Positions 33,524 through 51,894 of a stretch of 64,000 bases of DNA are shown piece after piece. The notes under the pieces were generated by a model. The model was not told where the DNA came from and ran no database searches. It saw only the letters and a list, made by a program, of their open reading frames with translations. Source of the DNA: Streptomyces sp. RPT161 (GTDB lineage: Bacteria > Actinomycetota > Actinomycetes > Streptomycetales > Streptomycetaceae); the NCBI RefSeq assembly GCF_027533845.1, contig NZ_JAPZVN010000016.1:62001-126000 (forward strand), read 5' to 3'. Made by a program: the position numbers and the translations under genes. Numbering within the stretch: the stretch's first letter is position 1; each line of letters opens with the position of its first letter.

Positions 33524-34756
33524 CTACGTCCTGGGCGCAAGGTGGATCGGCAGGGCACGCAGGCCATGGGCGATGAATGACTCGACCGGCTGGAGCCGTT
33601 CAGCGTCGATGGCGAGTTGAAGATCGGGGAAGCGGTCGAAGAGCGCGGGAAGCGCGATGCGGGCCTCCAGACGAGCCAGGGGCGCGCCGAGGCAGTGGTG
33701 GACGCCGTGGCCGAATGCCAGGTGGTCAGTGTGAGGGCGGCTGATGTTGAACTGGTCTGCGTCAGGTGCGTGATGGGCGGGGTCACGCCCGGCGGCGGCG
33801 TAAGCAGGCAGGATCGCCTCTCCCTTTCGGATTGTGGGACCGTCGGGGATGGGGATGTCTTCGACGGCGAAGCGCAATGGCAGGCTGGCGATGCTGGGTG
33901 CCCATCGCAAGGTCTCTTCGATGACGTCGCTCCACGACGCCGTTCCTGCACGCAGCAGACGGAGTTGGTTGGGGTGCGTGAGTAGGGCATGGACAGCATT
34001 GCCGATGAGGTTGACGGTGGTTTCGTGACCGGCACCGATGACCAGCAGCAGGGTGTCGATCAGCTCGGAGTCGCTCAGGCGGGCGTCGCCGTCTTGGTCG
34101 CGGGAGGCGACCAGCACACTGGTCATGTCATTGCCGGGGTTGGTGCGCTTGAGGGCAACTAGGTCGGAGAGCAGCTCATGGATCTCATGCCAGGTGGCAG
34201 CAGCCTGGTCTGGGGTCGCGGCGGCGGTGACGATGGCCTCGACGAGGCGCGCGGTGTCAGCGCGTAGGGTGTCCGGGATACCGAACAGTTCGCAGATGAC
34301 CTGCATGGGCAACGGGTGGGCGAAGGCGGTGCGGAGATCCACAGGGTGTTCTGTGGGGGCGGTGGTCATGGCATCGAGTAACTGGTGCGTGATCTCCTCG
34401 ATGCGTGGGGCGAGGGCCTCAGTACGGCGGGCTGTAAACGCAGGGGCGATGAGTTTGCGTAGCCGTCGGTGGTCGGAGCCGTAAGCAGTGAACATGTTGG
34501 TGACGCCGATCCACTGGTGCAGCCACGAGGTGGGAGTGATCTCGCCGCGCTGCCAGACCGGCCAGTGCTGCCGGGGGTCCTTCGAGACCTGCGGGTCGGC
34601 CAGGAGTTGCTTGAGCAAGTGGTGGCTGGTGACCGCCCAGGCGGTGATGCCGCCGGGGAGTTCTACGAGGGCTGCGGGGCCGAGCTTGCGGAGGCGGCCT
34701 GCTTCGCCGTGGATGTCGCTGCCTGTGGGGTCGATGGCGACGGGCTGCTGTTCCAT
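33524..34756 (-). CDS. Cytochrome P450, CYP154-like
   Basis: 410 residues, a complete soluble bacterial P450: I-helix GAGHETT, K-helix EETLRW (ExxR) and the haem loop [17 protein letters not shown] with the axial cysteine. It is the last gene of the conservon operon and its ATG (34756) lies 94 bases inside the preceding P450 gene. In Streptomyces, CYP157 and CYP154 genes occur in this order in conservons, which supports the subfamily suggestion. The substrate is unknown; an electron-transfer partner is not encoded nearby. Confidence 0.9.
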
Positions 34757-36003
34757 GGGGTGGCTCCTGTTTGGTCGGGGCTGATAGGGGTGAAGCGGGC
34801 GGGGAGGGCGGAGAGGGCCCGGTGGAAGGAGCCAGGCCGCCACACCAACTGCTCGTAAGGCACGGCGAGTTCGATGTTGGACAGCCATCCGGTAAGTCGC
34901 TCGATCGCGGTGGTGGCGATGAGCAGAGCGTGCTGCTTGACCGGGCAGGCATGCGGCCCAGCCGCCCAGGCGAGGTGTGATCGCTCGCCTGAGCGTGCCT
35001 GGCCGGGCGCGGTATGGGCTGGCTGGGTGTTGGCGGCAGCGTAGGAGACCAAGACGAGTTGTCCGGCGCGGATCCAGGTGCCGTGGAAGTAGATGTCCCT
35101 TAGTGGGTAGTGGGCGGAGTAGTTGGCCATGGGCGGGTCCCGCCACAGGACTTCGTTGATGGCATCCTGTGCGGTCAAGGCCCCGCCGACCAGGCTGTTG
35201 TAGTAGCGGTCGTCGGAGAGCATGCGGCCCAGCGCGTTGCCGATCAGGTTGGTGGTGGGCTCGTGCCCCGCCCCCATCGTCAAGATGATCTGGTCGACGA
35301 GTTCTTCTGGGCTGAGCCCTGCGGGGTGGTGCATGAACCAGGAGGTCAGGTCATCTCCGCGCCGTTGCCGTTTGAGGGCGACGAGTTCCCTTACGTACTG
35401 GCCGTAGGCGGCGTTGGCTTCGGCAGCCTCTTCGGGGCTGTTGCCTTCGAGCATCCCGGCCAGCGCGGCGATAAGGCGCTCGCTGTAGTGGTCGGGCAGT
35501 CCGAACAGTGCGTTGAAGATCAGTAGCGGCAGGCTGCGAGCGTATTGGGCAATCAGGTCGCAGTGGCCCGCGCCGCCGAACTCGCGGATGAGCCGGTCGG
35601 CGCAGTGTTGGACCAGGAGCCGCAGTTCGTGGGGCTCGACGAGGTCGAAGGCATCGACGATGACGCGCCGGTAGCGGGCATGGGCCTCGCCGTCGCTGAA
35701 GAGTACGTTACGGCGCCAAGCCAGCATCGGTAGCACTGGTGAGTCTGGTGGGATGGTGGCCTGCCACCGGCGTGGGTCTTTCGACCAGGTGCTGGTGTCG
35801 CGCAGCAGGTCCAGCGCCGTTTGGCGGCCGGTGACCAAGAGCGCGTCGACACCGGGGGCGATCTCAACCGGCGCGAGTGGCCCGCAGAGCCGCAGGTGCG
35901 CGTAGAAGGCTTGAGGGTCGGCGGCGAACTGGGGGCCGTAGAGCTGTACCACAGGGGGTGCGTCGCCGTGGGCCGGGCAGCTGGGCGGCTGTTGAGTTGT
36001 CAC
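34663..36003 (-). CDS. Cytochrome P450 lacking the ExxR arginine, CYP157-like
   Basis: 446 residues. Haem loop [16 protein letters not shown] carries the axial Cys but has Ala-Trp in place of the usual Phe. The I-helix reads GAGHEPTTN. The K-helix, normally ExxR, is EVLW in [20 protein letters not shown]. Loss of the Arg is the known trademark of the CYP157 family, where the only fully conserved P450 residue is the cysteine. It overlaps the GTPase-like gene by four bases and runs 94 bases into the CYP154-like gene, so the pair is co-expressed. Whether it is catalytic is open. Confidence 0.9.
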
Positions 36004-36602
36004 GCGGGCTCCATGTGCATGTGGGCGATGACGTGCTCGACCAACGCGATCAATGCGTCGAGGGATTGCCCGCGGCTACGGGCGTCGCACAGGACCAGGG
36101 GGGTGCCGGGGTGCAGGTCGAGGTGGTCCCGCAGCGTGTCCGCGTCGTAAGTCGGCGCTTCGGGGAAGGGATTGACGGCCACGGCGTACCGCAGCCCCGC
36201 TTCCTCGATGAGGTCCATTACTTCGAAGGACTCTTCCAGGCGGCGGGTGTCGACCATGACCAGAGCACCGACTGCTCCTTGAGCGATGTCTTCCCATAGC
36301 AGGCGGAACCGTCGCTGGCCCGGCGTCCCGAACAGGTACAGCACCAGGTTGTTGGGCAGAGTGAGGCGTCCGAAGTCGATGGCCACCGTGGTGGTGGTCT
36401 TGTCCTTCACTCCCGCCAGATGGTCGACCAGCGCACCGGCCTGCGTCATCACTTCCTCGGTGTGCAGGGGCGCGATCTCGGAGATGGCTCGGATGAGCGT
36501 GGTCTTGCCGACGGCGAAGGGTCCGGCGATGAGAAGTTTGATCAGGACCTGATCGGTCCCGGCCAGGTATCTGGGGTCAGGACTTGAGCGCGCGGAGTCC
36601 AT
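36000..36602 (-). CDS. Conservon GTPase-like protein (CvnD type)
   Basis: 200 residues. P-loop GPFAVGKTT near residue 28-36, switch-like region TTTTVAIDFGRLTL and FGTPGQRRFRLLWEDI (DxxG-type motif changed to GTPGQ), as in CvnD proteins of Streptomyces conservons, which behave like small G-proteins. The usual NKxD is replaced by VNPF, also normal for the family. With the Roadblock and DUF742 proteins it is expected to form a membrane-associated switch downstream of the kinase. It overlaps the DUF742 gene by 26 bases. Confidence 0.9.
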   Translation of the reverse strand: MDSARSSPDPRYLAGTDQVLIKLLIAGPFAVGKTTLIRAISEIAPLHTEEVMTQAGALVDHLAGVKDKTTTTVAIDFGRLTLPNNLVLYLFGTPGQRRFRLLWEDIAQGAVGALVMVDTRRLEESFEVMDLIEEAGLRYAVAVNPFPEAPTYDADTLRDHLDLHPGTPLVLCDARSRGQSLDALIALVEHVIAHMHMEPA

Positions 36603-36936
36603 CGAGAACCTTCTCCATTGTTTCGAGATCTGGTCCGGTGGCCTGTGGGATAGGAGGGCGGGCGTGCAAGAGCCCGGCGCTGACGAGGTCGGCCACTAGG
36701 ACTTTGACGATGCTGACGGGCAGGCGCAGGTACGCGGCGGCATCGACCAGCGGCAAGGCCCCGGGCTGGATCAGTTCCAGCACGCCACGCTGCTCCGGGC
36801 ACAGGCCGACCGGTATCTCCTCGCAGGCGGCGTGCAACGTGGTGAGCCTGTCGAGGTGGTTACGGCTGGGGTGAGCGCGCCCGCCGGTTGCCAGGTAGGC
36901 GGGCACGAGCCGTCTGCTGTGCCTGCCGCCGGTCAT
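36577..36936 (-). CDS. DUF742 protein (CvnC type)
   Basis: 119 residues: RRLVPAYLATGGRAHPSRNHLDRLTTL at the N-terminus, EQRGVLELIQPGALPLVDAAAYLRLPVSIVKVLVADLV forming a winged-helix-like core, and the short tail ATGPDLETMEKVLDGLRAL. This is the DUF742 signature of conservons. ATG 36936 overlaps the Roadblock stop by four bases. Partner of the Roadblock and GTPase-like proteins. Confidence 0.9.
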   Translation of the reverse strand: MTGGRHSRRLVPAYLATGGRAHPSRNHLDRLTTLHAACEEIPVGLCPEQRGVLELIQPGALPLVDAAAYLRLPVSIVKVLVADLVSAGLLHARPPIPQATGPDLETMEKVLDGLRALKS

Positions 36937-37361
36937 CCCGCGGCATCCCGAACGGGCTCGCGTGGCGAACTGGTCATGACTTTCTCTCCCAGGGACTTCA
37001 CCTGGATCTGCATCTGATGCGCCACTACCCCCAAGTTGACTTCCAGGCTGGTGAACACGGCCAGATACGCGTTCCCGCCAGCGGGGATGACGAAGACGTA
37101 ACCGTCGTCGGATTCGATGATGGTCTGACGCAGCCGGGGCTTCGGGTTCCCGGAGAAAGCCTGTGTGGTGGCGCGCGCGGCCCCCTGAAGAGCAGACATC
37201 ATCGCAGCCGCGCCTTCCGCGTCCGCCTCCGCCAGGTCCGGGGAGCGGCCTTCGATGAAACCATCGCCAGACAACACTGCGGCGTGAACCACGTGTGGCA
37301 GTTCCAACAGCGGGCCGAGCACCCACGACTTGTCCTCAGTCGCCTTCCGAAATGCGTTCAT
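36933..37361 (-). CDS. Roadblock/LC7 protein (CvnB type)
   Basis: 142 residues with a Roadblock/LC7 fold (LPHVVHAAVLSGDGFIEGRSPDL, MMSALQGAARATTQAF, YVFVIPAGGNAYLAVFTS, MQIQVKSLGEKV). In conservons this protein acts as regulator of the GTPase-like protein and dimerises. It overlaps the kinase gene by four bases and the DUF742 gene by four bases. Confidence 0.92.
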   Translation of the reverse strand: MNAFRKATEDKSWVLGPLLELPHVVHAAVLSGDGFIEGRSPDLAEADAEGAAAMMSALQGAARATTQAFSGNPKPRLRQTIIESDDGYVFVIPAGGNAYLAVFTSLEVNLGVVAHQMQIQVKSLGEKVMTSSPREPVRDAAG

Positions 37362-38665
37362 GATGTCGCGTCCCCTTCTACTTGCTGCGAGCCAGGCTCA
37401 GCGGCGGCCCGGCCCGACTCAGTACCGGCCTGGAACGCCGCCCAGCGCTGACCTGCCTCCTCCGGAGTACGGTCCGGGGCCGTGTCAACAAGCCTCGGTC
37501 GGGCCTGGGCTGTGGTGGGCTGACGTCGGCGTCGCCGCGGCAGGCCCTCGCCTCCAGGTGGGGGCGCAGGTGCAGGGGCGGTGTCAGAGCGAGGGCGTGG
37601 GGCCATCGCGGACATGGGCTGGGACCCGGGGTCCATTCGCGTGAGCAGGGCGCCCGGCAGGTACACGATGGCTCGCACACCGCCGTACGGGGAGGGCTCG
37701 ACGCGGACGGCGAACCCGTGTTGGTGCGCCAACTGACCGATCGCGGGGAATCCCATCCGCGGGGGGTCACCGAGCTCAGTGAGCAGCACCGGAGCCCGAG
37801 CGGTCATCAGGCGTTCCGCGCGCTGGAACTCCTCCTGGTGCATCCCGATCCCGGCATCATCGATGACTACCGAGGCGCCCTGGTGGCCCTGCAGTAGCGC
37901 GACTTGGACTGGAAGGTCCGGGTGCGAGTGGTGAAGCGCGTTTGCCAGCAATTCGGCGATCGCGATGGCGACCGGCTCCACCGCGCGGGCCACGACACCG
38001 ACTGGATCACGCAGTTGGTTGCTGACCTCAACCCGCTCGTACCCCCGCACCCGTGACCGTGCACCGACCGTGATGTCGGCCAGGTAGGAGTCCTCGCGGA
38101 TCAGTCCTGTCCAGGGCGCTCCGCACACCACGGCTGTGGCCTGTACCCGGCGCAGCGTCTGCTCGTTGAGGAAGTCAGCGGCAAGCAGATCCTGCGCGAT
38201 GTACGGGTCGTCGTATCGCTCCTGCATCTGCTGCAGAGCGCTCTGCATTTGATACAGCATGGCCTGGATCGTGCTGGTGGTCCCCTGCATCGCAGCCCGA
38301 GCGGCGGAGTCGACGCGCAATCGCTCCTTGGTGACTGCCTCGCGAACCTGTTCCAGCACCGAGCCCAGAGCACGCTCGATATCCGTTCCGGCGAACCGGT
38401 CATCCAGCAAACCCCGGACGGGCACGCGCGGGTGCGCCAACGACATCACCAGATCCGGAACGCGAGCACTGGCTAAATGCCCGACCTCGTCCTCCAGGGC
38501 CTGCCACAGACTTGTCAGGTGGGCGTTCTCCTCCTCCGCCGCCGCGGAGCGCTCAACCTGAGCCCTCCGGCCCAGCCAACTGCGAATCAGGAACGGCGCC
38601 ACGCCAAGAGCGGCCGTGGCGGCCCCTGTCAGGTACGCCACTAGCACCCCCGGTATCTGCATCAT
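37358..38665 (-). CDS. Conservon sensor histidine kinase-like protein (CvnA type)
   Basis: 435 residues from ATG 38665. One N-terminal membrane helix (about 5-30) is followed by a long helical linker and a GHKL ATPase domain with N-box AIAELLANALHHSHP near residue 240 and G1 box IDDAGIGM. No phospho-accepting H-box and no response regulator gene is present, as is normal for CvnA. The last 90 residues are Pro/Arg-rich. It heads the six-gene operon. A start further upstream (38770) is open but lacks family similarity. Confidence 0.9.
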   Translation of the reverse strand: MMQIPGVLVAYLTGAATAALGVAPFLIRSWLGRRAQVERSAAAEEENAHLTSLWQALEDEVGHLASARVPDLVMSLAHPRVPVRGLLDDRFAGTDIERALGSVLEQVREAVTKERLRVDSAARAAMQGTTSTIQAMLYQMQSALQQMQERYDDPYIAQDLLAADFLNEQTLRRVQATAVVCGAPWTGLIREDSYLADITVGARSRVRGYERVEVSNQLRDPVGVVARAVEPVAIAIAELLANALHHSHPDLPVQVALLQGHQGASVVIDDAGIGMHQEEFQRAERLMTARAPVLLTELGDPPRMGFPAIGQLAHQHGFAVRVEPSPYGGVRAIVYLPGALLTRMDPGSQPMSAMAPRPRSDTAPAPAPPPGGEGLPRRRRRQPTTAQARPRLVDTAPDRTPEEAGQRWAAFQAGTESGRAAAEPGSQQVEGDATS

Positions 38666-38750
38666 CGAAAGTCCTCGCTCTACGGACGGATGGTCGAGGC
38701 TTCCCCGACTGAAAGGGGGAAGGAGAACGGACTCATGTTCCCGTGCGGGT

Positions 38751-38945
38751 CTACAGATGGAACTGGCCAATCATGCGCGTCACGTTGGTCGTCAGACTGC
38801 GGATCGTGGGAGCGAGCGAAGAGCTGGCGAGATAGAAACCCAACAGGATGCACACCAACGCATGGCCCAATTTCAAGCCTCCCTGCTTGACCAGCAACAG
38901 CACCATGATCAGCAGAAAGAGAACCGTGGATACGCTCAGGGTCAC
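38751..38945 (-). CDS. Small conserved membrane protein
   Basis: 64 residues with two hydrophobic helices (VLFLLIMVLLLV and HALVCILLGFYLASSSLA) and the ending IRSLTTNVTRMIG. I recall very similar small proteins across Streptomyces, often near conjugation or regulatory genes, without known function. GGAGG lies seven bases before the GTG at 38945. It is 85 bases upstream of the conservon and could share its promoter. Confidence 0.75.
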   Translation of the reverse strand: MTLSVSTVLFLLIMVLLLVKQGGLKLGHALVCILLGFYLASSSLAPTIRSLTTNVTRMIGQFHL

Positions 38946-42148: not shown

Positions 42149-42757
42149 TCAGTTGGAGTGCGCTTCCAGAGCGTCGAGGATCTCGGGCCAGAGTTCACGG
42201 GGGCGGTCGTGACCCATGCTGGGAATCAACAAGAGCTTCGCTCCGGGCACCAGGTCTGCGGTGCGTTTCCCACCACTGGGGTCGATCAGCGTGTCATCCA
42301 GGCCGTGGATCACCAGGGTCGGCACCCGAAGCTTCCGGAGTGCGTCTGCGCGTGACCCACCCAGGATCATCGCGCCGAGTTGACGCCCTACTCCGGCTGG
42401 GTAGTAAGCGCGGTCGTAGCTGTTGGCAGCGAGCTCACGAAGGATCGCGGGGGCGCCGTAGCGCTTGGAGGCCCACACCAGTTCCCTCTCCGCCGCTGCA
42501 ATCTATCCCTCACGGTCGGCTGGCTTTGGGCTGAAGAGCACCGCCTGGGCCTCGGGGCTAGGCTGTCCGTATTCGGGTTCGCCGGTCGAGGACATCATCG
42601 ACGTCAAGGTCAGCACCCGCGCCGGCTGGGTAATGGCCATCGTCTGGGCGATCATGCCGCCCATCGAGGATCCGACCACGTGAGCTCGTTCGATTCCGAG
42701 CGCGGTGAGCAGGCCGAGGCCGTCGTCGGCCATGTGTAGCGGAGGCTCCGTGATCGG
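42149..42757 (-). pseudogene. Alpha/beta-hydrolase, truncated and interrupted by a stop
   Basis: Reading leftward, the frame starts inside the fold (PLHMADDGLGLLTALGI), carries the nucleophile elbow VGSSMGGMIAQ, meets an in-frame TAG at about 42503-42505 after PADREG, and continues in the same frame with YDRAYYPAGVGRQL, LRKLRVPTLVIHGLDDTLIDP (acid) and IPSMGHDRPRELWP (catalytic His). The first third of the enzyme is missing: the remaining homology begins right at the stop codon of the STAND ATPase gene. Gene loss at that point together with the internal stop shows that it is inactive. Confidence 0.85.
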
Positions 42758-45700
42758 TCAGGACGATGGTGGGCTGACCGGTTCGTCGAGCAGCCGGACA
42801 TCGCGCCACACGTTCGTGTAGGCACGCTGGGCCTCCCGAACCCAAGAAGGAGGCGCGTGCCAATCAACGGCCACCTCGCGCTCGCCCCACGCCACCTGCA
42901 TGATCCGGCGGCCGGCAGCGAAGCTCTCGACGAGATCACGGCGCAGGAACAGCAAATGCCCTCGCCAGGGCTTGTCCACGCTGAAGGCTGCAGAGGCGCG
43001 CCGGCCGTCCAAACCCACTAGGTCCAGGGTGCTGGGCAACTGACGCAAGCCGAACCGGGCGGCGAATTCGAACGACGGCACATCGTACGACCCGTCCAGA
43101 GCACTCTTCGATTCGCTGTCGGAGGGGAACTCAACAGCGACTTGGTCGAAACTGATGCCTTCGGCGTCCTGCCAGTTCCGCTGAATTTCCGGCTGCGGGA
43201 CTGATTCCGAGGCGAAAGTAGGGTCGAATCTGAAGCTCCAGGGCATTTCCGTAGCGAGAACGCCACGAGCCGTCGGCAGCGAAGGGAAGAAGTCGTTTCC
43301 CGGATAGGCCTGTTCTACAGCGAACTGCCGTGCGCGTTCGGCATCTTCGGGAGCGAGGAGGAGGGTCCGGAAGAACCCGAACGCCGTCCGGCCATCATGC
43401 TCGTGGGCCAGGTAGCCCTCGGCCAGGAGCCAGCCACCACCCACGCCGTGGATCTCCGCCGGAGACCACAACTGGTCTGAGACTGCCACACTGCCTGACG
43501 TGACCCAGGTCTGATCGTCCCTGGACTCCACGGATGCCCACGGCGGAAGGGGCACAGGCGCGACCGGCGGCTCGTCGGGGAAGCCCGGGTCAATGTCGGG
43601 CATCAAACGTTCCGGCTCCCCGAAGAGGGCCGGTGCCCGTCCGACGTCCACGAGACGGCCGACCATTTCGTGATAGGCGATCCAGCTGTACTTTTTTCCG
43701 TAACGCTCCACCTTCCTCGAAGAGCTGTAGCGGCGCTCGGCACTCATGGCGATGGCCTCGTCGAGGCTACCGAACTCCTCTTTGCGCCAGCCGAGTTCCC
43801 AGACGCGGGCCCTGACCTCGGCGCGGGCTTGGCGGAAGGCAGGGTGGGTGTAGTCGTAGTTGCCACGGTCGTTAATGGCAGCTCCGATGACGTAGTTCTC
43901 AAAGTTCATGCCCATGGTGCGGTCGCATTCCGCTGCATGAGGATCGTCATCGGCCATCACATTGGCGGGCCCCACGGCGGCAAACGTCAGGGCGCGGGCG
44001 TCGACACCATCCGGGACGGCGGCGGGGTGGAGGGCACCAGCGAACTCGAAGGTCGCCCGTACGTAGCCGCGCAACTGCTCATGTGAGGTGGGAGCAGCCC
44101 CGCCATCGAGGAAGCTGTCGTGCAACTGCGCCAGCCAGTCACGTAGGGCCTGCTCGAACGATCCTTCGGGATCAGGCATCTGATGGGTGCTGGCGGCGCC
44201 GAACGCAGCACCGACTAGGCGCTCGACGATGTAGAGGTCATCGGCGTCGAGCATCCTGGCCGCGAGGTCGAACAACCGCTTGGGTTCCGGCCGGCCGTAT
44301 CGCTGGAGGGCCTTCGTGGCGAGGTCACGCAAGACCGTGTCCGTCGAGGCCAGCAGCCAGGATATGGCCAATGCATCCAAGTCGTCGCTCTCGGCACGGT
44401 CTGCCCGGGCCTCCCATCGGCTGACCGTCCGCTCCAGAGCCTTGGTGAGCACTCCTGGGGCTTGGCCACGAACCCATTCGGTCCAGTACGGATCGCGCTG
44501 TGCAAGGGGAAGCCGTCGCAGGACCCGGTCAAGGAACTCGGCGTTCAGGCGGTGTCGAACAGATCTGCGCACCTCCCACAGGCGGTCGAACGCATGACGA
44601 TGCCCTCGGCCGCCGGCCCAGCGTGTGCTAATCAGGGCTTCAAGCGCGTTGACAGTCTCGTCATCCAGGAAACCGGACTCAGTGGCGAGTTCACCGGCGA
44701 GCGCGAAATCACGATGCTCGGCCGGGGCGGCGCGCCACAGGTGACGCTTGGTGAAGCGACGTGGGAGCAGGCCGATCAGCCCGACGGTGACATCCTCACC
44801 GAGGGAGTGCGCCTGCTCGCCGAGGAGGGACTCCCACAGATCCGGCTCCGCGAGCTGATCGTGGACACCGGAGTAGGTCATGCGCACCAGGAGCGAGTCG
44901 GCGATCAGGTATCCGGCGAGGCGGTCGAACGCGAATGCGCACTCGGTGTCGTCGAAGCCCTCCGTCTCCTGGCGAATGAGGACCCCTTCCTCCACCAGGC
45001 GCCGGAAGAGGCTCTCGTCCCAGCTCGACTGGCCCGCGTCTAGGATCTCCCTAGCCTCGTCGGACGGCAGACGGCGGAGCTGATGTGTCCACATGTGGTT
45101 GGCGAGGTTGGCGAGGCGGCGCTTGATCTGCTCGGCGGGCACGTGGGTGCGCGCCGGGTCCAGGGCCAGGCGCTCGGCCACACCGTCGCGGTACAACTCA
45201 AAGACACCCACCAGGGACTGAGGCAGCGCTTCCGCGCCCACCGGTGTCTGGCGCGTGGGGTTCGCTGCCTCGCAGTACATGCGGACGAACAGGGGGCTAT
45301 GGAAGGCCACCGTCGGAAGCCAGGCGTCGGACGGGTTGATCTTGTACTCGCGGAAGTAGACCGTGACGATCTCGGAGACCTCCGCCTGCTGCCACTCCAG
45401 GTCCAGCCGCGCGGCGTCCTGGGGGATCAGCTGATCGGCATGTGCGTCGCGAAGGGTGACGATGACCATCACGTAGGGGTAGTCGCCCAACGCCGGCGCC
45501 AGTTCGGCCACCAGCCTGCGCCATTCAAGGGGCCGCTCGGCCTCGTTCAGCCCGTCGATGACCAGCGGGATGCGACAACCCGCCCGAATTCCAGAGGAAT
45601 TGAGCGCTTCCAGGAGCTGGTCGAAGCGATCGGCCTTGATACCGGGAATCCGCCGTGCGAGGTCGTCGAGAGTGCTGCCAGCATGCAGGCTCCCGCCTTG

Positions 45701-46765
45701 GACGAACACCCCCGCTGTAGGTCGGCCGGTCGCTGCGGTCATCTGCGCGGCGAGGTGTGTCTTGCCCTGCCCCGCGGCGGCGGTGACGGCAAGCAGTGGA
45801 GCTTCGGCATCGGCTCGCGCAGTGCTGAGCCACTGGACGATGTCGCGAAGGTCCGCGCCAAGGCCAGTCACCAGGAGCGCTTCAGGTCGCTGATGCCTCC
45901 TTAGCTTGACCACCAGGCGCTTCAGCGCTCGGGGAGAAGTCGTTGGCGGCTGTTGGCCGGCGAGCCGCTCACGGACCTCGCCAGGGCGAAGGCTCCTGCC
46001 GGCGTCGATGATCGCACGCAGGTCCTCGACGAAGCGGTTCAGGTCGTCGGCAGCAACTGCGGCGGCGTCACGCGAGTCCGGGTCCAGGCCATCGAGGGCA
46101 GCGCGAAGCGCACCGGTACGGACTGCGACATCGTCGGTTCGCTGCTGCAGCCAGTCGAACGCCGCCGGGCGTAGCAACGCACGGTCAATGTGATGCTCAG
46201 CCTGGGTTGAGGTGTGCAGGCGGGGCATCCACCGGAGCCTGACCGGCGCAACACTCCGCTCGTGGGACCGCTTCAACACCTCGGGCGTAAGCGCGAGTTC
46301 GCCGAAGAACGTGGCCCGCAGCTCGTCAAGCCCGGCCAGTTGAGCCTCGTAGTTCTCGGCGCACCACAGGCTGACTTTGACGGTTTCCTGGCTGAGGCCG
46401 TCGATCCAGTCCTCGTCCTTTTTCGCCGGCCGGTAGGGTAGGCAGAGAACAAAGTCGGTCAGCCCATCAACGTGCTTGACCGCCAGCCTGAGCGACTCTT
46501 CGGTCAGTTCGCGCTGGCGGACGGTCAACTCGTTCTTGCGGTTGAGCGCGAACCACTTGCACGACCAGCCCCAGACCCGGCCGGGATCGCCCAGGGCGCC
46601 GACGCGGTCGACATGGAAGTAGAACTCGACACCGGGCTGGTTGCGCCGCTCCCGCATCCTTCCCAGCGCGCCGTGGTGCCGAGAGACGATGGCTCGCGTC
46701 AGGGCCTCGAAGCTCTGGTCGGGGGCACCGGGCAGGCGCTCCAGATCAGCCAGATCCAGTGTCAC
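42758..46765 (-). CDS. STAND (NACHT-type) ATPase with N-terminal nuclease-like domain, Avs-like
   Basis: 1335 residues. Residues 1-150 resemble the restriction-endonuclease-like domain that leads many anti-phage STAND proteins (FEALTRAIVSRHHG, PGVEFYFHVDR, WGWSCKWFAL, DFVLCLPYRP); E and the SCK lysine could be the active site. An NTPase of the NACHT/STAND class follows with Walker A AAGQGKTHLAAQ near 328 and Walker B IPLVIDGLNEAE near 400. The remaining 900 residues are helical repeats and a strand-rich C-terminus, fitting a target-sensing part. GTG 46765 overlaps the DUF6375-like stop (GTGA). It is the last gene of a three-gene operon. Role in defence is inferred from architecture. Confidence 0.8.
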   Translation of the reverse strand: MTLDLADLERLPGAPDQSFEALTRAIVSRHHGALGRMRERRNQPGVEFYFHVDRVGALGDPGRVWGWSCKWFALNRKNELTVRQRELTEESLRLAVKHVDGLTDFVLCLPYRPAKKDEDWIDGLSQETVKVSLWCAENYEAQLAGLDELRATFFGELALTPEVLKRSHERSVAPVRLRWMPRLHTSTQAEHHIDRALLRPAAFDWLQQRTDDVAVRTGALRAALDGLDPDSRDAAAVAADDLNRFVEDLRAIIDAGRSLRPGEVRERLAGQQPPTTSPRALKRLVVKLRRHQRPEALLVTGLGADLRDIVQWLSTARADAEAPLLAVTAAAGQGKTHLAAQMTAATGRPTAGVFVQGGSLHAGSTLDDLARRIPGIKADRFDQLLEALNSSGIRAGCRIPLVIDGLNEAERPLEWRRLVAELAPALGDYPYVMVIVTLRDAHADQLIPQDAARLDLEWQQAEVSEIVTVYFREYKINPSDAWLPTVAFHSPLFVRMYCEAANPTRQTPVGAEALPQSLVGVFELYRDGVAERLALDPARTHVPAEQIKRRLANLANHMWTHQLRRLPSDEAREILDAGQSSWDESLFRRLVEEGVLIRQETEGFDDTECAFAFDRLAGYLIADSLLVRMTYSGVHDQLAEPDLWESLLGEQAHSLGEDVTVGLIGLLPRRFTKRHLWRAAPAEHRDFALAGELATESGFLDDETVNALEALISTRWAGGRGHRHAFDRLWEVRRSVRHRLNAEFLDRVLRRLPLAQRDPYWTEWVRGQAPGVLTKALERTVSRWEARADRAESDDLDALAISWLLASTDTVLRDLATKALQRYGRPEPKRLFDLAARMLDADDLYIVERLVGAAFGAASTHQMPDPEGSFEQALRDWLAQLHDSFLDGGAAPTSHEQLRGYVRATFEFAGALHPAAVPDGVDARALTFAAVGPANVMADDDPHAAECDRTMGMNFENYVIGAAINDRGNYDYTHPAFRQARAEVRARVWELGWRKEEFGSLDEAIAMSAERRYSSSRKVERYGKKYSWIAYHEMVGRLVDVGRAPALFGEPERLMPDIDPGFPDEPPVAPVPLPPWASVESRDDQTWVTSGSVAVSDQLWSPAEIHGVGGGWLLAEGYLAHEHDGRTAFGFFRTLLLAPEDAERARQFAVEQAYPGNDFFPSLPTARGVLATEMPWSFRFDPTFASESVPQPEIQRNWQDAEGISFDQVAVEFPSDSESKSALDGSYDVPSFEFAARFGLRQLPSTLDLVGLDGRRASAAFSVDKPWRGHLLFLRRDLVESFAAGRRIMQVAWGEREVAVDWHAPPSWVREAQRAYTNVWRDVRLLDEPVSPPSS

Positions 46766-47175
46766 TCGCTCACGTCCGATCGCGGCGTCGCGTCCTCGTT
46801 CCATTCGTGGCGGGAGAACACCTCGACCTTCGCACCGTAGTGGAGGAACACCTTCAAGAACCCCTGTACATCGGACTCATCGGTCCAGAGCCTGACCGTC
46901 TCGGCGTCGCGGGTGACGCTATGGTCGAACGCGTAGTTGTCGACGTCGGAGCGGCCCAGGTCGTACAGCTTCATTTCCTGCAGTGCGTCGCTGAGTTCGC
47001 GAGGCATGCGCTCATCGTGGGTGCGCCAGTCGTCGTCGGACCACGTGTCTTGGGCGAGTTCCTGCAGTGCCTTCATGCATTCCTCGGCTGCCTTCGCGCC
47101 GGTGACTTCTTGGAAGCGGCCGATCATGACGAGGTTCATCGAGTGCTCCGAGCCGTACCCGTTCCAGATCCTCAT
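46762..47175 (-). CDS. DUF6375-like protein
   Basis: 137 residues. MRIWNGYGSEHSMNLVMIGRF is a striking N-terminal signature that I associate with the family DUF6375; the rest (AAEECMKALQELAQD, YDLGRSDVDNYAFDHSV, DVQGFLKVFLHYGAKVEVFSRHEWN) is alpha/beta. Function is unknown. The conserved phrase and the exact overlaps on both sides (ATGA with the radical SAM gene, GTGA with the ATPase gene) tie it functionally to both neighbours. Confidence 0.8.
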   Translation of the reverse strand: MRIWNGYGSEHSMNLVMIGRFQEVTGAKAAEECMKALQELAQDTWSDDDWRTHDERMPRELSDALQEMKLYDLGRSDVDNYAFDHSVTRDAETVRLWTDESDVQGFLKVFLHYGAKVEVFSRHEWNEDATPRSDVSE

Positions 47176-48083
47176 CGTGCTCCTCTCAGCGTCTGGACGG
47201 CATCCATGATGGAGGCGCCAACCGGTGTTCCCGCAGCAGCGTAGGCGTGAGGGCGCAGCACCCCTGTAGCGTCGACGTGCATGTGCGCGTCCAGAGAATG
47301 CTCGCCTAGGAGTGCCTCCGCGACTGGCAGCGCCGCCTCGAGGCCGGTGCGCGAGATTGCGAGGCGAACCCCAGCCCTGGCGGCCGAGACCCACTCGACA
47401 AGACGCCGAGCATCGGTTTCGCCGATACCAGGGGTAGCCGCAGTTGGCTGCTCCGGCAGAAGCAGCAGCTCAGAAGCGCCGACATCGGCAGCGAACCTGG
47501 CGACGTCGTCAAGTTCATCGATGGTGTCGGCGTTGACCACTGTGTTGATGCCGAACGGGGCAAGGGAGGCGAGCAATGAGGCTGCTCGGACCACGGAGGC
47601 GAATGGCTTGCCGCGGAGTCGTTCGTACGTTGGTCCGATTCCGTCGACCGACAGACGGACGAAGTGGACGGCCCCGCGCAAGGACTCGATGAAGTCGGGC
47701 GTCAGCCGGTGCCCATGCGTGGTGAACGTCACTGCCATTGACGTGGACTGAGTAATGTCCGTGCACAGTTGAGAAAACCGGCGGTACGCGGTCGGCTCCC
47801 CTCCTCCGAAGCCGACGCCCAGGCACCCGGCCGCATCGAGCTCGACCGCCCAGGCCAGTACGTTCTCGGGGTTGAGAGCCGCAGCATGCTTGGGCGCGTA
47901 GCAGTACAGGCACTGGAGTTCGCACGCGTTCGTCAAGGCGACGGACAGGTACCGCGGTGCAGGAGAGAACTGCTCAGCAGCGACAGACACCTCATCGAAC
48001 AGGACGTTCATCCCGGAGGTGCGGTCAAACAAGTGAACGCCACAAGCGGACAGGCGGATCTTGCACGTCATCGACGACATCAT
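47172..48083 (-). CDS. Radical SAM enzyme
   Basis: About 303 residues from ATG 48083. The iron-sulphur cluster motif CELQCLYC (Cys54, Cys58, Cys61) is followed by the SAM-binding GGGEP and a complete partial barrel (VTFTTHGHRLTP, VRLSVDGIG, FGINTVVNADTIDELDDV, ELLLLPEQP). There is no C-terminal SPASM or second Fe-S cluster. It is not clearly viperin: the NHHS-type and C-terminal features are not visible. As first gene of the operon with the DUF6375-like and STAND genes it may modify a peptide, RNA base or small signal used by them. Starts at 48071 or 48080 are also possible. Confidence 0.85.
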   Translation of the reverse strand: MMSSMTCKIRLSACGVHLFDRTSGMNVLFDEVSVAAEQFSPAPRYLSVALTNACELQCLYCYAPKHAAALNPENVLAWAVELDAAGCLGVGFGGGEPTAYRRFSQLCTDITQSTSMAVTFTTHGHRLTPDFIESLRGAVHFVRLSVDGIGPTYERLRGKPFASVVRAASLLASLAPFGINTVVNADTIDELDDVARFAADVGASELLLLPEQPTAATPGIGETDARRLVEWVSAARAGVRLAISRTGLEAALPVAEALLGEHSLDAHMHVDATGVLRPHAYAAAGTPVGASIMDAVQTLRGAR

Positions 48084-48452
48084 GCCACCAAGGCCAGCGA
48101 CGGCTGTCCGTATCCAAAGATCTGAAATGTCCACCCAGAAGGATGTCAGCGCGTCCGTTGACACAGCACTCGCTGGACGGTGCCAGAGGGCTGCGACGCA
48201 GCGCCCTCGCCACGCCTTCGAACTGAGCAGACCGCATCACGAGATCGACTGATCCACCGTCAGCTAAGTCAGCATTGAGTCAGCATTCATCCGACTAGGC
48301 CCTGCTACAGCTGCTCAAACCTGCGAATCGCCGCTGGGCTCCCAAAGTCGCAATCACAGGGGCGGCCAGTGGTCCCGGCAATCGGGCTCGACGGAGCGAG
48401 AGCCGTGCCCACCAGGCTCTCAGCGATCCCATCAGCAGGGCGAATGCCCAGC
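48084..48452. other. Intergenic boundary between accessory operon and core-like genes
   Basis: 369 bases without a gene. The only structure noticed is a tandem AGTCAGCATT at 48267-48276 and 48278-48287. It should include the promoter of the radical SAM operon (leftward) and the 3' end region of the pirin gene. Confidence 0.5.
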
Positions 48453-49418
48453 TCAGCGCACACGTCCGCGCGGTTTCAGCGGCCCGGGCGGGAGTGCGGG
48501 GGCGGTAAGTCGAGAGCCGTCGTAGCCGCGCACCTGCCCGAAGCGAGTGCCTTCCATCCAGTCCATGCGGGCCTGTACGATCTCGTCCCCGGTCCGCCCG
48601 ACGAAGTTCCACCACATGACGATCTTCTCCTCGAACGGCTCGCCGCCCAGCAGTACGAGGTCGGTCGCGGTGTCGGCGCGTAGTGGCAGCCCCGTTCGGC
48701 CGCAGCCAAGGTAGAGCAGGGAGCCGGGGACGAGCGGTACGTCGTCCACGATCGCGCCGCCCGACATCGTGAGCGCCGCGTACTCGAAGGACGGATCGAG
48801 CGGCAGCGTCACATCGGCGCCCGCGTCCAGCAGCAGGTCAGCGCCGACCAGCGGGGAGAACGTACGGCCGGGTGAGACGGCGCCGGCCAGCTCGCCGATG
48901 ATGACGGTGGCCCTAAGGCCCGGCGCGGTGACCACGGGGAGTGCGGTGTGGTGGTCGAAGGCGGGCTCGGTGGCGCGGTGGGCGTCGGGGAGCGCGACCC
49001 ACAGTTGGGCGCCGTGCAGGAAGCGGGCGTGTTCGCGCGGGGACTCCTCGGAGTGCGCGATGCCCCGCCCCGCGGTCATCAGGCCCAGCTCGCCGGGGCG
49101 TACGGTTTGCAGGCTGCCGAGGCTGTCGCGGTGCAGCACCTCGCCTGCACGCAGCCAACTGACCGTCTGGAGGCCGATGTGCGGATGCGGCGGAACCTGC
49201 ATACCCGGTTCCTTGGCGATGTCGTCGGGGCCGTAGTGGTCGACGAAGCACCAAGCGCCGATCATGCGCCTGCCCAAGTTGGGCAGCAGGCGCCGCACTT
49301 CGGTGCTCTCGCCCAGCAACACCTGCCGCCCGGTGAGGAGTTCGCGTACCGGCTCGGCCGCGACGGCGGCGCGCCCGCCGCACACCGACACCTGGGGCCT
49401 GAGGTCGAGATTGCTCAT
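48453..49418 (-). CDS. Pirin-family bicupin protein
   Basis: 321 residues. N-terminal cupin with the metal-binding pattern PPHPHIGLQTVSWLRAGEVLHRDSLG and GRGIAHSEESP (His, His, His, Glu) and a second cupin from about residue 180. Pirins are iron-binding and some act as quercetinases or redox co-regulators. GGAGGG precedes ATG 49418. It follows the universal stress protein gene by 31 bases on the same strand. Confidence 0.92.
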   Translation of the reverse strand: MSNLDLRPQVSVCGGRAAVAAEPVRELLTGRQVLLGESTEVRRLLPNLGRRMIGAWCFVDHYGPDDIAKEPGMQVPPHPHIGLQTVSWLRAGEVLHRDSLGSLQTVRPGELGLMTAGRGIAHSEESPREHARFLHGAQLWVALPDAHRATEPAFDHHTALPVVTAPGLRATVIIGELAGAVSPGRTFSPLVGADLLLDAGADVTLPLDPSFEYAALTMSGGAIVDDVPLVPGSLLYLGCGRTGLPLRADTATDLVLLGGEPFEEKIVMWWNFVGRTGDEIVQARMDWMEGTRFGQVRGYDGSRLTAPALPPGPLKPRGRVR

Positions 49419-49449
49419 GCTGCCCTCCGCGGAGTGGTTCACGGCCGGA

Positions 49450-49917
49450 CTACGGGACGACGGTGACCGGCCAGCGGGCGGCCTTGACCAGCCGGACCGC
49501 CAGCGAGCCGATGATGCGGTGGCCGGCCTGTTCCGAGGCGCCGACGACCACGGCGTCGGCGCGCAGTTCGTCGGCGGCCTGGGACAGGCCGGTGAACGGG
49601 TCCCCGGCGAAGGTGTGGAACTCCCAGCGCAGCGTGGCCGTCTCGCCCATCCGCTCGATCGCCTCCCGCACCTGCGCGACGATCTCCTCCGCGACCTGCG
49701 AGGTGGCCTCGGCCATCGGCACGCCGAGACCGGCCGAGCTGGCCATGGCCATGGGCTGTACGTACACCATGGCGAGCAGGGACCGCTGCCGCCTGGCGAG
49801 GCCGGCGGCGTAGGCCGCCGCGCGCCAGGACGACTCCGAGCCGTCGACTCCGACCACTATCACCTTCGGACCGTCCGTACCCAGCTCGAACGCCGACCCG
49901 GTGTTGTTCTCCGTCAC
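49450..49917 (-). CDS. Universal stress protein (UspA family)
   Basis: 155 residues with the UspA fold: VIVVGVDGSESSWRAAAYAAGLARR at the start and the ATP-binding end ADAVVVGASEQAGHRIIGSLAVRLVKAARWPVTVVP (G-2x-G-9x-G(S) pattern recognisable). GTG 49917 with AAGGT close before it. Pairs with the pirin gene, probably co-transcribed. Confidence 0.9.
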   Translation of the reverse strand: MTENNTGSAFELGTDGPKVIVVGVDGSESSWRAAAYAAGLARRQRSLLAMVYVQPMAMASSAGLGVPMAEATSQVAEEIVAQVREAIERMGETATLRWEFHTFAGDPFTGLSQAADELRADAVVVGASEQAGHRIIGSLAVRLVKAARWPVTVVP

Positions 49918-50220
49918 ACCTTGAGCGTAGTCGGGCCGGAACGTTCCGCCGGGCCGGGGCCGGTACGGCGTCGACCCAGCCCTCCGGCGTGCGGCCCCAC
50001 TGCGCCGCGCGGCCCCGCCCGACGCCAGCACACACCCCAGCGCTTTGTGAACCCTTGGCCAACGCGCCGCTTGCCGAACCGTTGCCGTTCGCCCCACCGT
50101 ACTCACCAGTCGCTAGCGTGCGCCTGCCTTTCCGCGGCCCCGCGGATCTGGCGGGGCACACCACCGTCTCCGGGTCCGCGTCAACGGTTGGGCAACCACC
50201 CCATCTAGCAGGAGGCACTT
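49918..50220. other. Divergent promoter region
   Basis: 303 bases between the leftward stress-protein operon and the rightward phosphodiesterase gene. No clear promoter hexamers or repeats were identified; only the ribosome site GCAGGAGG just before 50221 is evident. Confidence 0.4.
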
Positions 50221-51270
50221 GTGATCGCTCGTCGATCGACCGCCGCGGCCATGGTCGCGGCAACGGCCCTGTTCCTCGGTGGCCTCGCACAGCCCGCGGT
50301 GGCGCAGCCGGCACGGAGCGCGGCCAGCGGAACCGGCGGTTCGCTCTCCGTCTTCGCCTGGAACGTCGACCTCGCCACGGCCGTGGTCGACTCGGTGGAG
50401 AGCGAGAAGGCCGCCGAGCGCACCCCGGTGGTCGAGTCGGTGATCCGCCAGCACAACGCCGATGTCGTGGTGCTGGACGAGCTGTTCAACCACGCCTCGA
50501 CCGACGACATCACCGCCAAGCTCGCCGACCTGTACCCGTACCGGACACCGGTGGTCGGCCAGGTCTGCTCCGGCGGCGGTTGGAACGGCATCAGTGGCAA
50601 CTGCTCCAACTCACCCTTCGTCATCAACGGCGGGACGATGATCCTGTCCAAGTACCCGATCACGGCCCAGTACGCCCATGTGTTCACCAACTCCACTTCG
50701 GGGACCTGGGACTACAACGCCAACAAGGGCGCGGCGCTGGCCCAGATCGACAAGGACGGCAGCAAGACCTGGGTGGTGGGCACACATCTGCAGGCCGACC
50801 AGTCGAACACCTCGACCGACACCACGCAGGCCACCCGGCTCGCCCAGCTCGGCGAGATCCGCGACTGGGCCGACGGCATCGTGGGCTCCAACGGACCGGT
50901 GCTCATCGGCGGCGACCTGAACGTCGAGTATTACCACGGCCAGGCGCGCGGCGACTACGCCAACGCCCAGGCCGCGGTGGGCGGTGTGCTCGGTACCCCG
51001 GCCGGCGATCCGTCTCAGACGCTGACCACCATCGACTGCAAGGTGTCGGCGTGGTGCCAGTACATGGCGGGCGTCGAGAGCTTCCCTACCGACTACACCG
51101 ATGATGTGGACTACCTCGGCTACCTCAACGCGCCGGGACGGCCCACCCCGGCGGCGCTGCCCGACGTCGCCGTCGACTTCGACCCGCAGAGCGGCTGGAC
51201 GCAGGGGCAGACCGACACCAACGCGCCCAGCGACCACTACCCTGTCGAGGCCACGTTCCAGCTGAACTGA
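50221..51270 (+). CDS. Secreted endonuclease/exonuclease/phosphatase-family phosphodiesterase (sphingomyelinase C-like)
   Basis: 349 residues with a signal peptide (AAAMVAATALFLGGLAQPAVAQ). The DNase I-like fold shows FAWNVD (Asn), VVVLDELFN (Glu), INGGTMILSKYPI, VVGTHLQAD (His), IGGDLNVEYY (Asp, Asn) and the final SDHYPVEATF (Asp-His), the full metal-dependent catalytic set. Similarity is closest to bacterial neutral sphingomyelinases, so a phospholipid substrate is likely, although a nuclease cannot be ruled out. GCAGGAGG precedes GTG 50221. Monocistronic. Confidence 0.9.
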   Translation: MIARRSTAAAMVAATALFLGGLAQPAVAQPARSAASGTGGSLSVFAWNVDLATAVVDSVESEKAAERTPVVESVIRQHNADVVVLDELFNHASTDDITAKLADLYPYRTPVVGQVCSGGGWNGISGNCSNSPFVINGGTMILSKYPITAQYAHVFTNSTSGTWDYNANKGAALAQIDKDGSKTWVVGTHLQADQSNTSTDTTQATRLAQLGEIRDWADGIVGSNGPVLIGGDLNVEYYHGQARGDYANAQAAVGGVLGTPAGDPSQTLTTIDCKVSAWCQYMAGVESFPTDYTDDVDYLGYLNAPGRPTPAALPDVAVDFDPQSGWTQGQTDTNAPSDHYPVEATFQLN

Positions 51271-51328
51271 CGCCCGACAGCCGGCGGTACCGCCCGTCGG
51301 CGGTCAACTGGCCGCCCACTTACGCGGG

Positions 51329-51673
51329 TTACGCGTCCTCGTATGAGGCGGCCAGTTGGCCTGGCGCCGCCTGCCGCCAGGAGTCCAGCAGGATGGCGCG
51401 CAGTTCCTCGATGTCGTCCACGGCGGCGAGCCGGACCCGCATCCAGGCGAAGTTGTCGTCATGGCCGCGGCGTATGAAGAACTTCTCCGGCTCCGCGGCG
51501 ATCAGCTCGGCCCGTTCATGCATCGGGCACTTGACGCTGATGGAGGCGTCGTCCTCGGCGAGCCACGCGAAGGACCTCCCGCGCACCCGGAAGGACGGCA
51601 TGCCCCAGGCCAGCTTCTCCACCGCCTCCGGCAGGGAGAGCGCGATTCTCCGTACGTCGTCGGCGTCGGCCAT
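51329..51673 (-). CDS. MmcQ/YjbR-family protein
   Basis: 114 residues: DDVRRIALSLPEAVEKLAWGMPSFRVRGRSFAWL at the N-terminus and FFIRRGHDDNFAWMRVRLAAVDDIEELRAILLDSWR at the end, matching the YjbR double-wing fold, thought to bind DNA or act in unknown regulation. Convergent with the phosphodiesterase gene. Confidence 0.88.
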   Translation of the reverse strand: MADADDVRRIALSLPEAVEKLAWGMPSFRVRGRSFAWLAEDDASISVKCPMHERAELIAAEPEKFFIRRGHDDNFAWMRVRLAAVDDIEELRAILLDSWRQAAPGQLAASYEDA

Positions 51674-51894
51674 CTCGGTCCTCCGTTCCCACCGTTCACC
51701 ACCGACCGTAGTGCCCACCACTGACAATGGCCGCCGACGGCGCTTCCGTGCGCCGCCCAAGCGCCCGCAGCCACTTTCCGCACTACCGGCGCGGCACGGC
51801 GCGACCCCGCGCGCTCCCCGCGGCTGGCGCCCCCGGCAGCCATGAGCGGGCACACTGGACCACATCGTTCTTCGCACCTCCGAGGACGGCCCTC

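Follow-up and report, generated by a model that had tools for sequence, protein, structure and literature searches.

Animal NLR immune receptors have bacterial relatives in the Avs proteins, and to our knowledge the known Avs proteins are triggered by touching a phage protein directly. Avs2 is a single-gene system, and we know of no radical SAM (S-adenosylmethionine) partner of Avs4. Here we analyze a locus of Streptomyces sp. RPT161, contained in a 64,000-nucleotide stretch of contig NZ_JAPZVN010000016.1 (the whole stretch is referred to as the window), in which three open reading frames (ORFs) on the minus strand encode, in this order, a radical SAM enzyme, a protein of the DUF6375 family and a nuclease-NACHT STAND ATPase. 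We propose, with a rough probability of 0.4, that this operon is a three-gene anti-phage system in which a DUF6375 protein marked by the enzyme would gate the nuclease.

Several described systems are close to this locus in one part or another, as given in the accessible parts of the sources cited. Avs1 to Avs4 are reported to act as nucleases after sensing a phage terminase, portal or other phage protein (PMC12931631). In qatABCD, the QatB N-terminus is unstructured and putatively modified by QatC, and the tail with its terminal motif is essential for defence (PMC13279940); in the type IV cyclic-oligonucleotide-based antiphage signalling system (CBASS), the enzyme Cap9 is associated with deazaguanylation, a mark on the N-terminus of the CD-NTase (PMC11996544). 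For the FtsH ternary systems of vWA-MoxR conflict systems, a radical SAM domain has been proposed to modify a separately encoded peptide effector (PMC7159879).

A literature search whose scope left out most subscription papers yielded no paper naming DUF6375, and none linking a radical SAM enzyme with AVAST (the Avs systems) or describing the operon. The effector appears to be an Avs relative; for the arm made up of the radical SAM enzyme and DUF6375, no counterpart is described in the literature searched.

Order and distribution of the three genes

The initial annotation had read the three genes as an operon joined by ATGA and GTGA junctions, and the ORF coordinates bear this out (Table 1). 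The radical SAM frame offers possible starts further upstream, to 48164, and an in-frame ATG at 46804 upstream of the ATPase start would add 13 residues to that protein.

One genome per species (84,980 species) was scanned with the DUF6375 alignment as a query and a pattern fixing tail residues 6-14. This identified 71 DUF6375 loci; locus L053, which is the same plasmid as L004, was removed, and the genome counts use the remaining 70. The radical SAM gene lies directly upstream of DUF6375 in 69 of the 70 loci and the ATPase gene directly downstream in 65, which is also the number with the full three-gene order; in all 65 loci having the ATPase, the other two genes precede it. Among the five ATPase-less loci, L036 and L080 stop at a contig end, and L063 has a transposase-like ORF downstream (read by eye). 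The ATPase ORF is shorter than 1250 residues in seven of the 65 loci: three of these ORFs reach to 83 bases or less from a contig end, and four appear broken or split. The enzyme is split into two ORFs in three loci. The radical SAM and DUF6375 genes overlap by 4 bp in 56 of 74 plasmid and genome loci with both genes, the distance in the remaining ones ranging from -17 to 94 bases.

At locus L067, near 9001-9561, DUF6375 is found without the enzyme or the ATPase, with an altered C-terminus and right after a PglZ-like ORF (read by eye); perhaps it is a remnant or lies on a misassembled contig of a metagenome-assembled genome.

The same association was seen on plasmids, when the three proteins were searched by tblastn against PLSDB (72,556 plasmid records). 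DUF6375 matched 16 records, and the radical SAM enzyme (E<=1e-8) matched exactly these 16. The ATPase matched 70 records; among the matches listed, coverage was at least 75% in 15 records, all of them within the 16 DUF6375 plasmids, and in none of the 55 others. The one DUF6375 plasmid without the ATPase comes from Deinococcus peraridilitoris; there, an IS3-family transposase gene immediately follows DUF6375. In two plasmid records the ATPase match is split in two and accompanied by an IS3 transposase gene. Twelve of the 16 DUF6375 records are from Vibrio and 11 are predicted to be conjugative; in one Vibrio plasmid (L006) the operon is located upstream of the resistance genes qnrVC6 and dfrA.

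The shared order in 65 of 70 genome loci, together with the shared 16 plasmids, rules out a chance meeting, and the three genes almost certainly form a conserved functional unit. The initial annotation had called the enzyme and DUF6375 obligate partners of the ATPase; with these counts they are near-obligate, and the genes are not usually found apart. The distances within the three families also agree: for the 62 systems represented in all three alignments, pairwise distances correlate with r=0.85 (enzyme-DUF6375), r=0.93 (enzyme-ATPase) and r=0.90 (DUF6375-ATPase), values reached in none of 999 permutations.

This arrangement bears on one alternative, in which DUF6375 would be an antitoxin that inhibits the nuclease ATPase only while it carries the mark. 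A phage that attacks SAM, iron-sulphur clusters or gene expression would then strip the mark and free the nuclease. A small partner encoded before a nuclease-type ATPase fits such a role, and so does the retention of DUF6375 at ATPase-less loci, though a search based on DUF6375 must give that. In PLSDB, where ATPases lacking DUF6375 were looked for, none of at least 75% coverage was found. We consider this alternative quite improbable.

Judged by record titles, the hosts in the genome scan belong to Actinomycetota, Pseudomonadota, Planctomycetota, Nitrospirota, Bacillota, Bacteroidota, Cyanobacteriota, Verrucomicrobiota, delta-proteobacterial groups and candidate phyla, with Deinococcota on plasmids. 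Within these taxa the family is rare. Among 396 genomes of the window's phylum, only the window's own genome scored above the family cut-off, one further match being below it, and among 369 genomes of the class around a Pseudomonas genome only the central genome exceeded it. DUF6375 had no match in 50,697 phage records; viral contigs gave ten DUF6375 pattern matches, none of which encodes a relative.

The nuclease-NACHT ATPase

The best PADLOC model for the ATPase is the Avs2 model PDLC02164 (E=5.7e-103), on which the window protein scores 344 bits and five relatives 289-396 bits; on this model an annotated Avs2 reaches 1682 bits and another protein of that type 1602. Likewise, it reaches 246.2 of the 1000 bits set as the NCBIfam Avs2 equivalog cut-off. 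We aligned 63 ATPases whose ORFs have 1250 residues or more; 45 of them were used for a family profile, and 34 N-termini (165 residues) for a nuclease profile. The family profile matches the solved Avs2 (PDB 9o4e) with 304 bits at positions 160-964 and 975-1305. The latter segment aligns with residues 1094-1447 of 9o4e (i-Evalue 1.1e-26), and since it spans the sensor part, the sensor appears to be related to that of Avs2 too; a C-terminal sensor unrelated to Avs2 was rejected on this match. The motif RYGKKY at 1021-1026 is invariant in the 63 proteins.

The N-terminal profile, in turn, matches the solved Avs4 (PDB 8dgf, E=2e-6). Of the individual N-termini, 25 of 34 match the PADLOC Avs4 model and 15 of 34 the Avs2 model PDLC02164 at E<=0.01, and no Pfam nuclease model is among their matches at E<=1. 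The putative catalytic residues are conserved: E20 and E47 in 63 of 63 proteins, position 68 being Q in 61 and S in two, and position 70 K in 54 and R in nine. We read the N-terminus as a predicted PD-(D/E)xK nuclease similar to that of Avs4. The window ATPase is one of the two proteins with S in place of the nuclease-motif Q at residue 68 (codon near 46562-46564), and its nuclease activity may be altered by this replacement.

The model of residues 136-1335 has a mean predicted local distance difference test score (pLDDT) of 86 and matches NLRP14, Avs3 and NLRC4 with E-values from 2e-8 to 2e-6. A second fold comparison found Avs3 (Z 14.3, 679 residues aligned) and NLRP3 (Z 13.2, root-mean-square deviation 10.8, 371 aligned). 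These matches fall mainly on the NACHT part and barely on the sensor region. Both parts of an Avs-type protein that the initial annotation had expected were found, the NACHT fold by model and the Avs-like nuclease by sequence. To judge from the two profiles, this protein is a remote sister of Avs2 that carries a nuclease of the Avs4 type.

The radical SAM enzyme and the DUF6375 tail

The Radical_SAM domain of the enzyme (PF04055) scores 62.6 bits against a gathering score of 29.5. In an alignment of 72 relatives with a single-ORF enzyme, including the window, the three cysteines of the CxxxCxxC motif (residues 54, 58 and 61) are kept in 71, 71 and 72 proteins, respectively. The only other near-invariant cysteine is C107 (70 of 72); C255 occurs in 48 of 72 relatives and is absent from the window enzyme. 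A C-terminal HxDAxGxLKP stretch is also seen in the family alignment, which we take to resemble the start of a SPASM/twitch domain without the cysteine.

Among the best 25 of 60 matched NCBIfam families, all scores are below the cut-offs: 52.8 of 265 bits for the mycofactocin maturase, 49.7 of 284 for MoaA and 45.2 of 180 for viperin. The enzyme was thus rejected as a viperin on the equivalog cut-off. The closest solved relative is SkfB, a peptide maturase, with 64.5 bits, followed by PqqE (46.3) and a viperin-like protein (44.4). In PADLOC, viperin models are the sole matches at E<=1 (best 1.2e-15), and no QueC model is among the Pfam matches of the enzyme at E<=1.

The DUF6375 protein matches PF19902 over the full length of the model (1-132 of 132; 204.7 bits against a gathering score of 27.5). 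Its N-terminal tail is the most conserved stretch, with a mean entropy of 0.55 bits in residues 1-14 against 1.92 elsewhere in a 66-row structure alignment. Residues W4, G8, E10, H11, S12, N14 and G19 are present in 76 of 76 sequences, all of which have K or R at residue 2; these counts use all rows, while the conservation count uses 74 of them, with L036 and L080 dropped due to contig-end cuts. The starts were set with an expression requiring M/V/L at position 1, W/F/Y at 4 and G(S/A)EH at 8-11, which failed at none of 75 loci; the start codon is ATG in 70 of 75, the rest being GTG or TTG. Plasmid relatives were found without the scan pattern, and the motif is present in five of five that were aligned.

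In the AlphaFold2 model of DUF6375 the mean pLDDT is 83, with a mean of 50 for residues 1-10, and secondary structure starts only at residue 15. From there on, the body is modelled as a ferredoxin-like beta-alpha-beta-beta-alpha-beta fold. A profile search of solved structures gave a best E-value of 0.056, Foldseek with the model gave no match at E<=0.001, and no PADLOC model matched DUF6375 at E<=1. The second fold comparison returned only common ferredoxin-like arrangements, with Z up to 6.8, PII and CutA chains being among the matches at Z of about 6.

Because SkfB is the closest solved relative and the tail is nearly invariant and predicted to be unstructured, the evidence leans towards a peptide or protein as the target of the enzyme, specifically the DUF6375 tail; the initial annotation had suggested a modified nucleotide or peptide. 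By analogy with the thinking on QatC and QatB, the odds that the enzyme modifies this tail seem to us evenly balanced.

Two other roles for the enzyme have to be weighed here. A viperin-like enzyme could make a modified nucleotide or small molecule that DUF6375 carries or senses, thereby switching the ATPase. The viperin matches in PADLOC, MoaA and viperin among the NCBIfam matches and the PII and CutA signalling-protein chains are all consistent with it; yet the enzyme is far below the viperin equivalog cut-off and closer to SkfB than to the viperin-like structure, a Z of about 6 is common for the ferredoxin-like fold, and the near-invariant unstructured tail would be left unexplained, which makes this route unlikely. 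Alternatively, the enzyme could modify the ATPase or a host molecule as a self mark, and DUF6375 would be a recruiting adaptor with its tail docked in the enzyme. The adjacency of DUF6375 to the enzyme in nearly all genome loci agrees with this, and the globular body could serve as a recognition module; the strongest conservation, however, is in the tail, as expected for a substrate, even if a docking peptide also fits. We regard an adaptor role as decidedly unlikely, and prefer modification of the tail.

Genomic surroundings and the case for defence

The operon is located in a part of the accessory genome. In the same-genus genome L092, a region matching window positions 48440-51874 at 87% is followed, 283 bp on, by a match to 36477-36090 at 86%; as the two flanks are only 283 bp apart, the window carries about 12 kb extra. 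In the other same-genus genome, the right flank alone (from 48629) matches within the stretch compared. The right flank is thus kept at 83-87% DNA identity in both other same-genus genomes, which lack DUF6375. Of the setting described in the initial annotation, the core-like region on the right therefore stands, and the broken hydrolase gene on the left is putative: fragments at 42149-42739 read like the end of an alpha/beta hydrolase, and ORF 42152-42478 has no Pfam match at E<=1e-5. The guanine-plus-cytosine (GC) content is 63-68% within the 12 kb, 64-67% leftwards and 69-75% from about 49 kb rightwards. As the content inside and to the left is similar, it sets no left boundary of an island, and low GC was rejected as an island marker.

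We also scanned the flanks of the relatives, using a simple ORF picker to take a maximum of three neighbours on each side, none longer than 1200 residues (350 of 352 proteins, two of L033 being omitted), and considering the best 25 of 87, 188 and 112 matched families. Among the matches listed are PADLOC models for BREX (PglX, PglZ), restriction systems of types I, II, IIG and IV, Kiwa, Gabija, AbiE, Old and DRT (a reverse transcriptase system). The defence-island setting suggested at the outset is in keeping with the accessory position and with these neighbours, which were matched without a control set.

A housekeeping or metabolic operon found in islands by chance is the remaining alternative. 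Many radical SAM enzymes are biosynthetic, and the scanned neighbours in the window are not defence genes. The very patchy presence (one genome above the cut-off among 396 of the phylum), the carriage on plasmids, the Avs-type ATPase and the defence neighbours at the relatives nevertheless make this explanation highly improbable. From the kinship with Avs, the patchy accessory presence and the defence genes flanking the relatives, we conclude that the operon very probably has an anti-phage role.

In two Spartobacteria loci (L049 and L050; about 3.6-16.6 kb) the operon sits inside a type I restriction operon: the specificity gene precedes it, and an hsdR-like gene shares 4 bases with the end of the ATPase gene. 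Upstream, L050 encodes a type I methyltransferase as well as a protein with weak similarity to Argonaute-type models. On a plasmid of Deinococcus sp. QL22 (L005:10663-14358), a 1231-residue protein encoded after the operon matches the Upx defence model (E=2.2e-43). In the window itself, positions 34663-38770 contain, in a row, a PF03029 ATP-binding ORF and a histidine-kinase-like ORF, along with what we take to be a cytochrome P450-like ORF (no Pfam match at E<=1e-5) and a roadblock-like ORF. This gene row presumably resembles a Streptomyces conservon, with partial Pfam support.

Table 1. Coordinates of the operon, its domains and the surrounding insertion in the window.
Feature	Coordinates	Strand	Details and evidence
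Radical SAM enzyme, gene 1	47172..48083	-	303 aa; PF04055 E=6.5e-17; start codon uncertain
DUF6375 protein, gene 2	46762..47175	-	137 aa; PF19902 E=9.2e-61
Nuclease-NACHT STAND ATPase, gene 3	42758..46765	-	1335 aa from GTG
ATGA overlap, radical SAM stop / DUF6375 start	47172..47175	-	read in sequence
GTGA overlap, DUF6375 stop / ATPase start	46762..46765	-	read in sequence
Near-invariant tail, DUF6375 residues 1-14 (MRIWNGYGSEHSMN), proposed modification site	47134..47175	-	entropy and pLDDT
Predicted PD-(D/E)xK-type nuclease domain, ATPase residues 1-165	46271..46765	-	profile against Avs4 8dgf; by sequence
Walker A, AGQGKTH, ATPase residues 331-337	45755..45775	-	G332, G334, K335 invariant in 63 proteins
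Walker B, VIDGLNEAE, ATPase residues 402-410	45536..45562	-	D404 and E408 invariant in 63 proteins
C-terminal helical and alpha/beta sensor region, ATPase residues ~600-1335	42758..44968	-	distant Avs2 sensor relative
~12 kb stretch holding the operon, absent from same-genus genome L092	36478..48439	.	flank alignment

Proposed mechanism

In the mechanism that we propose, the enzyme would modify the unstructured, near-invariant tail of DUF6375, in the manner supposed for QatC and the tail of QatB, with K/R2, W4, Y/H7, E10, H11, S12 and N14 as candidate residues. DUF6375 would then bind the ATPase through its ferredoxin-like body and the modified tail, and either arm or restrain it. In view of the Avs kinship, the C-terminal region of the ATPase may sense a phage protein, possibly with DUF6375 as a co-sensor; sensing would lead to oligomerisation, upon which the N-terminal nuclease would cut DNA and stop the infection. 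Put tentatively, the system could be an NLR-like bacterial nuclease licensed by a radical SAM mark on the tail of a partner, with the mark acting like a password: its presence could arm the nuclease, or the nuclease could be released once the mark is lost because a phage attacks SAM, iron-sulphur clusters or host expression.

Several observations weigh against this proposal. As to the enzyme, an auxiliary set of SPASM iron-sulphur cysteines was not found in the C-terminal domain in the alignment of 72 enzymes, and the scores near viperin and MoaA make a nucleotide product possible. As to the tail, its invariance is partly by construction, because the scan pattern and the start-finding expression fixed some of its residues; its low pLDDT could simply stem from an invariance that goes without co-variation, and folding of the tail onto a partner is conceivable. 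As to the ATPase, whole-chain TM-scores of the NACHT fold matches are low (TMq 0.16-0.26 at the best ranks), and the Avs3 match has a large root-mean-square deviation of 33.1 Å over 679 residues. At locus L077 the enzyme and DUF6375 are present and the ATPase is missing (ORF read by eye). The nearest neighbours of the three proteins agree in just 25-33 of 62 cases; as the distances correlate but the nearest neighbours often differ, the proteins seem mostly to move together, with noise or some exchange. Finally, ten scanned neighbours in the window show no defence family, and those of the relatives stand without a control.

An Avs-like nuclease, a kept enzyme and a near-frozen tail, found together across phyla, suggest protein modification in a sensing or safety step. 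This would offer a first function for DUF6375, give an uncharacterised radical SAM family a defined substrate for assays, and parallel deazaguanylation in CBASS and qatABCD. If the password-like licensing is true, immunity would gain a new kind of protein modification, and marked tails in the style of QatB would have arisen a second time independently.

Comparison with known systems

Prokaryotic viperins share with the window enzyme the radical SAM core and the antiviral association, but the window enzyme is far below the viperin cut-off and has a protein partner with a conserved tail. The FtsH ternary systems differ in their components, as no DUF6375 or Avs-like ATPase is described in the accessible part of PMC7159879.

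The ATPase is most similar to Avs2, with which it shares the NACHT/STAND motor with intact Walker motifs and the distantly related C-terminal sensor. However, it scores far below the Avs2 proteins, and two extra genes accompany it; the stretches around two Avs2-type proteins (L008 and L009) gave no match to the enzyme or DUF6375 profile. With Avs4 (8dgf) it shares the predicted N-terminal nuclease domain with the NQxG(V/I)E and GWQ motifs, whereas the whole window protein is nearer to Avs2.

The likeness to qatABCD and type IV CBASS is one of design only: in each case an enzyme is encoded adjacent to a partner with an N-terminal modification site, putative in some of them. In the window, the enzyme is a radical SAM protein rather than QueC, the partner is another protein, and the predicted effector is an Avs-like ATPase.

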